Shown one piece after another: positions 7,456 to 8,747 of a DNA stretch of 41,102 nt. Location: assembly GCA_947623685.1 (NCBI GenBank), contig CANQHF010000008.1, positions 1 through 41,102 on the forward strand, in the 5' to 3' direction. A program made the translations under genes and the position numbers. The notes beneath the pieces are model-generated. The model made no database searches and was not told where the DNA came from. It saw nothing but the letters and a program-made list of their open reading frames with translations. How positions within the stretch are numbered: position 1 is the first letter of the stretch; every line of letters starts with the position of its first letter. The DNA is from an uncultured Bacilli bacterium (GTDB taxonomy: Bacteria; Bacillota_I; Bacilli_A; RF39; UBA660).

Positions 7456-7483
7456 ATAATATCACTAACCCCCCCCCGGTCAA
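7456..7483 (-). promoter_or_regulatory. Promoter with poly-G9 spacer (putatively phase variable), paralog A
   Basis: Minus strand TTGACC(7483-7478)-GGGGGGGGG(7477-7469)TTAGTGA-TATTAT(7461-7456); 16-nt spacer; TGN extended -10. Confidence 0.75.
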
Positions 7484-7587
7484 GTTTTTTGATGAGTTGT
7501 GGAAAACAAATTGAAAAATCGTTTTAAAAAAAACATACTATTTGGGATTCACATCATTTTGTATGCTTTATTGTTTTAATTTATTGT

Positions 7588-8313: not shown

Positions 8314-8341
8314 ATAATATCACTTACCCCCCCCCGGTCAA
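8314..8341 (-). promoter_or_regulatory. Promoter with poly-G9 spacer (putatively phase variable), paralog B
   Basis: Minus strand TTGACC(8341-8336)-GGGGGGGGG(8335-8327)TAAGTGA-TATTAT(8319-8314); 16-nt spacer; TGN extended -10. Confidence 0.75.
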
Positions 8342-8379
8342 GTTTTTTAGTGAGTTGTGGAAAACAAATTGAAAAATCG

Positions 8380-8408
8380 TTTACATATATTTTTTATTAT
8401 TGTATAAT
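8380..8408 (+). promoter_or_regulatory. Sigma-70-type promoter of small RNA
   Basis: TTTACA(8380-8385)-17 nt-TATAAT(8403-8408), no CDS downstream on the plus strand. Confidence 0.7.
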
Positions 8409-8414
8409 TTAATT

Positions 8415-8503
8415 AGTGAGAGCAACCTACTAGGCTAGTTTGCTTTCCTAGAGATTCTAGGAGAAGTTACTACCCCCTTGGGATAGTAACTTCTCTTTTA
8501 TAT
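8415..8503 (+). ncRNA. Putative ~85-nt small RNA, candidate type I antitoxin, ending in a strong terminator
   Basis: Starts ~7 nt after TATAAT; internal hairpin CCTAGA-gat-TCTAGG; terminator GAGAAGTTACTA/TAGTAACTTCTC followed by TTTTATATTTT. Confidence 0.6.
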
Positions 8504-8505
8504 TT
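8461..8505 (+). terminator. Rho-independent terminator of small RNA (convergent with the small peptide gene)
   Basis: 12-bp stem gagaagttacta-cccccttggga-tagtaacttctc then ttttatatttt. Confidence 0.8.
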
Positions 8506-8578
8506 TAAGTATTAGCATTGCTAATAATAAAATTAAAAGTATGTTTATTACTTTAAGAAATATGTTTTCTTTTTTCAT
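8498..8578 (-). CDS. 26-aa hydrophobic peptide, candidate type I toxin (absent from ORF track)
   Basis: Translation MKKENIFLKVINILLILLLAMLILKI*; purine-rich SD region aaggaaaggcggtg upstream; an in-frame ATG at 8584 is an alternative start. Confidence 0.6.
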   Translation of the reverse strand: MKKENIFLKVINILLILLLAMLILKI

Positions 8579-8747
8579 AAGCATCACCGCCTTTCCTTTG
8601 CAAGAAAAAACGGAAAGTTAAACTAGCCCAAATATAGGTGCCCTCATATTAATATTTAGCCATAACTTTTTAAATCCCCCTAAAAATTTTTAAAAAATTA
8701 AAAAAAAATTAACGTATTATACGTTAATCATTTATATATATTGTTTT

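Follow-up and report, generated by a model that had tools for sequence, protein, structure and literature searches.

The genome of the uncultured Bacilli bacterium studied here carries a set of promoters in which a run of guanines separates the -35 from the -10 element, and the best explanation, which is considered likely, is a promoter-spacing phase variation of the kind described for porA, fetA and tp0126, spread genome-wide and acting mostly on surface genes. The G run would probably serve as a random on/off or dimmer switch, with a population that wears many coats. The window, i.e., the whole analysed stretch of 41,102 nucleotides, is contig C8 of a draft genome (G000) of 1,236,186 bases in 65 contigs, in which 33 matches to the pattern TTGACN(0-6)G6+N(0-12)TATTAT were found. 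Each of the 31 G runs of this genome that are G8 or longer and follow a non-G base lies inside such a promoter with the G on the coding strand, a further tract being truncated where contig C39 starts; the homopolymer is placed between the -35 and -10 elements as these are assigned by consensus only. As a pure spacer, C would serve equally well on the coding strand.

Two of these promoters, A and B, stand in the window (Table 1). Promoter B reads TTGACC-GGGGGGGGG-TAAGTGA-TATTAT on the minus strand, with TG at the extended -10 position, and promoter A differs from it by a single spacer base, the spacing between -35 and -10 being 16 nt in each. The identical geometry of a second G9 promoter, reported in the initial annotation, was thus confirmed for both sites, including the TTGACC, G9, TG and TATTAT elements. 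The two G8 tracts of the window (four overlapping matches) are to be compared with 0.08 expected from dinucleotide shuffles, and in 321 kb of the own genome, at 27.4% GC, these two are the only G runs of at least 7. The two promoters are not independent, as had been supposed, because the copies hardly differ between a point ~70 nt before the tract and about codon 60, while the remainder of the genes has strongly diverged; the conservation of the tract between A and B is, therefore, weak evidence in itself. The proposed function of the tract draws its support instead from the genome- and family-wide recurrence and from the length differences described below, and the suggested two switches with four expression states are too small a figure for a genome with ~33 of them.

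Table 1. Coordinates of the features discussed in the text (window positions, unless a contig or locus is named)
Feature	Position	Strand	Description
Promoter B	8314..8341	minus	TTGACC 8336-8341, G9 8327-8335, TAAGTGA 8320-8326, TATTAT 8314-8319
DnaA-box-like TTTTCCACA of promoter B	8356..8364	minus	end 14 nt upstream of -35
Promoter A	7456..7483	minus	TTGACC 7478-7483, G9 7469-7477, TTAGTGA, TATTAT 7456-7461
DnaA-box-like TTTTCCACA of promoter A	7498..7506	minus	end 14 nt upstream of -35
Paralogue B, P0002, 230 aa	7588..8280	minus	N-terminal hydrophobic segment and predicted beta-sandwich; weak SipW/TasA similarity
Paralogue A, P0001, 227 aa	6737..7420	minus	63% amino acid identity to B
Repeated element, ~260 bp	8380-8640
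Protein of 1092 aa	11931-15209		13 helicase-associated (HA) domain repeats
SipW-type signal peptidase	G000:C39:1745-2131		TIGR02228 over cut-off
Type VII secretion operon	G000 C18 (L060:450-2718)		spacing of its poly-G promoter 17 nt
Sigma-70 genes (regions 1.2-4)	L117:4420-6489; L131:3075-4922; L137:3357-5585; L257		behind poly-G promoters

The products P0001 and P0002 gave no match above the cut-off to any family, including the PF12389, TasA and TIGR04090 models. The structure model of paralogue B consists of an N-terminal helix and a beta-sandwich (mean pLDDT 80), with a carbohydrate-binding module as its best PDB match (E 7e-4, low TM), while the TasA fibre 8aur was a weak match at rank 17 (E 4e-3, TM 0.27); paralogue B is called SipW/TasA-like solely by its signal region and its company. 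In 280 kb sampled elsewhere in the own genome, the A/B family had no relative. Beside the pair lies a repeated element of ~260 bp. Eleven copies of it occur in the loci retrieved from the own genome, all of them adjoining a poly-G gene cluster, and the 280-kb background has no full-length copy. With a short hydrophobic ORF on the minus strand (MLMKKENIFLKVINILLILLLAMLILKI), a TTTACA-TATAAT promoter facing it and a hairpin that resembles a terminator, the element has the look of a type I toxin-antitoxin or sRNA module; Rfam yielded nothing above the cut-off. The window also encodes a 1092-aa protein of unusual architecture, which has helicase-associated repeats.

Within the own genome the poly-G genes belong to a ~220-aa family, which includes A and B, a ~550-aa family and a ~400-aa family. 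An operon on C39 consists of a 217-aa gene followed by the SipW-like signal peptidase, and the type VII secretion operon on C18 begins with an 82-aa protein, which looks like EsaB/YukD and is without a Pfam match, followed by several WXG100 proteins.

The pattern is present in 15 of the 18 genomes of the genus, one being that of Candidatus Aphodocola excrementigallinarum (Candidatus Aphodocola is placed in Bacilli incertae sedis), so that the further members for which the initial annotation had advised a search exist both in the genome and in its relatives, and the refutation proposed there by a lack of members in relatives failed. It was found in 25 of the 147 genomes of the family, presumably UBA660 of the order RF39 in GTDB, and, at the level of the order, in 56 of 289 genomes and in 26 of the 104 genera sampled; the other families of the class yielded six single matches only, among ~260 genomes, the viral contigs searched gave no match, and the reversed-pattern control gave zero in every genome. 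The number of G8+ tracts per genome reaches 54 (G274), and the pattern counts of some genomes are inflated by two overlapping -10 readings, each of which was counted. The flanks are specific to lineages: TTGACRTG9TAGTTTTATAAT in G114 and G288, TTGACTTG8TTCATTATATAAT in G064, TTGACTG8TAGTATTATATAAT in G067, TTGACAGCTG8TATATTATACT in G110, and TTGACAAAGTA-G14..16-TATAAT (also listed as TTGACAAAGTAG14-16TATAAT) in G325. That the tract has been kept while its flanks were replaced is the strongest argument for its function. A separate arrangement was noted in G021 (L212-L216), where 26 G8+ tracts occur without a TTGAC -35 element as TTCATAAATC-G8/9-TACTTTTAATAAGA-TATAAT, the tract taking the expected -35 position as in opc; since the pattern searches miss this type, the family-wide counts are lower bounds.

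Depending on the lineage, the tracts are 7 to 16 Gs long, as read from the consensus sequences of draft genomes, most of them metagenome-assembled, and the spacing from TTGACN to the -10 element is 15-17 nt in 229 of the 288 tabulated promoters; the others, belonging to few lineages, have mostly 18-20 nt, a spacing at which several lineages lie beyond the usual sigma-70 optimum. Among 163 promoters grouped into 13 classes with identical flanks within single genomes (G210 and G329 by hand count), 35 tracts depart from the mode of their class and more than one length occurs in nine classes, with 12 G8 and 13 G9 tracts in G284. Similarly, among paralogue pairs with an identity of 90% or more over 320 flanking nucleotides, the two tracts are of unequal length in 6 of 26 in the own genome and in 4 of 8 in G284. 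Such differences are what slippage would leave behind, as judged from paralogues rather than from alleles (the genomes of the two collections compared are apparently the same assemblies, with no second strain among them), and the within-genome counts are not independent events because the copies are related by duplication or conversion. The loss of mismatch repair as the source of hypermutability was rejected, MutS being intact in 34 of 36 genomes, including genomes with 31-54 tracts.

At the same time, the lengths in the own genome (28 G9, 2 G10, 1 G8 and 2 G7; n = 33), together with such uniform lineages as G114 (10 of 10 G9) and G064 (7 of 7 G8), look more like a stabilised length than free ON/OFF mixing. 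This bears on a serious alternative, namely that the G run is a fixed-length recognition element, whose shape or sequence is read by a regulator or a sigma factor and which is held at 8-9 Gs without any switching. It agrees with the predominance of G9 despite a total spacing of 16 or 17 nt, with the several lineages that show one length only and with the invariable coding-strand orientation in the own genome, unnecessary for a pure spacer. However, the length runs from 7 to 16 across lineages, G8 and G9 stand at ~1:1 with invariant flanks in G284, and even near-identical paralogues vary, so that this alternative is regarded as unlikely.

A feature beyond the initial annotation precedes the -35, namely a DnaA-box-like element. 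Such a box, TTTTCCACA, stands before 30 of the 31 promoters tested in the own genome, ending 14 nt before TTGAC in 29 and 15 nt in one; one promoter carries TTTTGCACA, and the sole promoter without the box, the G7 copy at C1:61930, has TTTTCCACC. In the other members of the genus, TTWTNCACA stands at 34 of 50 promoters, mostly 13-14 nt upstream, with the variants TTTTACACA and TTATCCACA, both within the DnaA consensus; most of the other genera examined are without it, and G153 has it. The dnaA region of the own genome contains clustered TTTTCCACA and TTATCCACA boxes, and TTTTCCACA is, therefore, also used at the presumed oriC. The background amounts to 39 TTWTNCACA in 321 kb on both strands, with just four TTTTCCACA, two of which are those of the window, although a binomial significance is overstated because the copies are related. 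Its constant position, and variants in several species that keep to the consensus, speak for a genuine site, and by its match to the oriC box the element at about -53 is a candidate for DnaA binding. This association is the most novel part of the promoter design.

The block from TTTTCCACA to the gene start may also be seen as a recombination cassette that swaps promoters or N-termini between genes, crossing over at the G tract or at the box. The homology of the paralogues is indeed concentrated in the promoter and the first 60 codons, the same 22-nt upstream variants precede different gene types, and many tracts are found at contig ends, as repeats are. Nevertheless, no recombinase or inverted-repeat arrangement was noticed in a cursory view of the loci, and a cassette predicts neither the length variation nor the conservation of spacing; it is a serious alternative to be weighed, though an improbable one. 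Either the cassette or the fixed recognition element could coexist with slippage.

The products of the genes behind the tracts are, by their predicted sequence features, in the great majority secreted or anchored at the N-terminus. Within the first 60 residues, a segment of 17 strongly hydrophobic residues was found in 75 of 84 targets (ORFs of 150 aa or more that follow the tracts in loci from other genera and from G013), compared with 57 of 243 ORFs taken as background from the own genome, a difference whose Fisher P of 3e-27 is indicative only because the paralogues are not independent. Among 122 scanned targets, Peptidase_M73 (TasA/camelysin) was matched in 11, TIGR04090 and TasA in five each, and the SipW-dependent, Big_2 (Ig), LRR, DUF285, InlB-repeat, laminin-G-like and pilin N-methylation models were matched as well, which, with the SipW-like peptidase in a poly-G operon, bears out the early assignment of the targets to SipW/TasA-like surface genes. 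The exceptions include GNAT, P-type ATPase and sigma-70 proteins, the last having long C-terminal extensions in four members of the genus (G006, G008, G010 and G013). Two of the four sigma-70 genes stand upstream of a P-type ATPase, and a sigma-70 protein driven in this way is possibly a phase-variable sigma factor. Two other identities were considered for these genes and rejected: the anti-phage MZA system, whose MzaA match is partial and covers the sigma part only, the neighbours (DnaJ, P-type ATPase and enolase) not forming a defence operon; and the primary sigma factor, the gene not adjoining dnaG in the three loci inspected.

The diversity of these targets also speaks to the notion that a single promoter was copied passively along with an expanding gene family, the tract itself being meaningless. 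The copies of the own genome do have much of the promoter region in common, and the two in the window hardly differ at their 5' ends. However, unrelated families follow the tract (82 to ~580 aa; type VII, sigma factor, P-type ATPase, GNAT), the flanks of other genera are unrelated and their spacer still contains G8+, and without selection a G8 run would decay at 27% GC, which leaves passive inheritance highly improbable and, by the cross-genus recurrence, effectively excluded. The same recurrence, in genomes from unrelated projects, refutes in practice a sequencing or assembly artefact, for which the chance is negligible: the genomes are drafts and poly-G is a known read-end artefact (dark cycles) of the two-colour short-read chemistry, but the tracts are internal, have conserved promoter elements on both sides and lie on one strand relative to the genes.

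According to the phase-variation model, the -35 and -10 elements of a sigma-A-type promoter would be separated by the poly-G as a hypermutable spacer, in which slipped-strand mispairing would gain or lose one G per step. The -35/-10 spacing would, thus, shift around its optimum (16 nt at G9 in the own genome), and the transcription level of each gene would change independently. As ~33 promoters are predicted to drive TasA/SipW-like and other exported proteins, the SipW-like peptidase and the type VII operon, a clonal population undergoing such slippage would give rise to very many surface combinations. In the genus, the DnaA-box-like element probably adds a trans-acting input. A wider version, which is put forward as tentative and rather doubtful, holds that 30-50 poly-G promoters would randomise the exported proteome, the SipW-type and type VII operons and, in relatives, a sigma-70 factor, with the DnaA box tying all of them to the replication initiator and the cell cycle.

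Switches of this type are known from several bacteria. In Neisseria, porA (poly-G) and fetA (poly-C) have a homopolymer between the -35 and -10 elements, the length of which alters the spacing and the transcription of surface proteins (PMC5320596, PMC7864442), and just three transcriptional phase-variable genes were listed for a gonococcal strain (PMC5320596). The spacer homopolymer is shared with the promoters described here, whereas ~33 promoters of one design and a DnaA-box-like element upstream are not. Treponema pallidum has poly-G tracts upstream of several surface-protein genes, including tp0126, where the tract lies between -35 and -10 and transcription is optimal at a spacing of 17 nt (PMC7864442). 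The tprL tract of this species is mostly G9 in the population, with 7-11 in vivo (PMC7864442), and the G9-centred lengths of the own genome parallel it, since a predominant G9 there is accompanied by other lengths. In this spirochaete, however, the tpr tracts adjoin the start site and others are in coding regions, while the position and flanks are standardised here. The Bordetella genes fim2, fim3 and fimX, which are paralogous fimbrial genes with a C-stretch in their promoters and a conserved 'fim box' alongside, are similar in combining homopolymer promoters with an accompanying box, but differ in the poly-C, the few genes involved and, in the available part of the source, the absence of a reported DnaA box (PMC1891110). 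The TasA/CalY-SipW system of Bacillus resembles the present one in the SipW/TasA-like N-termini of the products and the SipW-like peptidase encoded in a poly-G operon, although the window proteins have no TasA family match above the cut-off and their fold resembles the TasA fibre weakly. The open-access literature searched contained no paper joining phase variation with RF39, and of its papers naming the DnaA box, phase variation and promoter, none appears by title and abstract to describe such a switch. The type of switch is, thus, known, while its scale, lineage, standardised architecture and association with a DnaA box do not appear in the open-access literature searched.

Promoter-tract phase variation has so far been known mainly from few genes per genome in cultured pathogens, and here it is apparently the standard way of driving surface genes in many genera of uncultured small-genome gut Bacilli. 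If this is true, the strain-level surface variation of these commensals could be predicted from sequence and measured in long reads that already exist. The DnaA box, with its fixed position, suggests a link of surface variation to the initiation of replication that can be tested directly, and, should the more tentative version with the box as a cell-cycle input hold as well, surface expression would be stochastic and at the same time coupled to the cell cycle.
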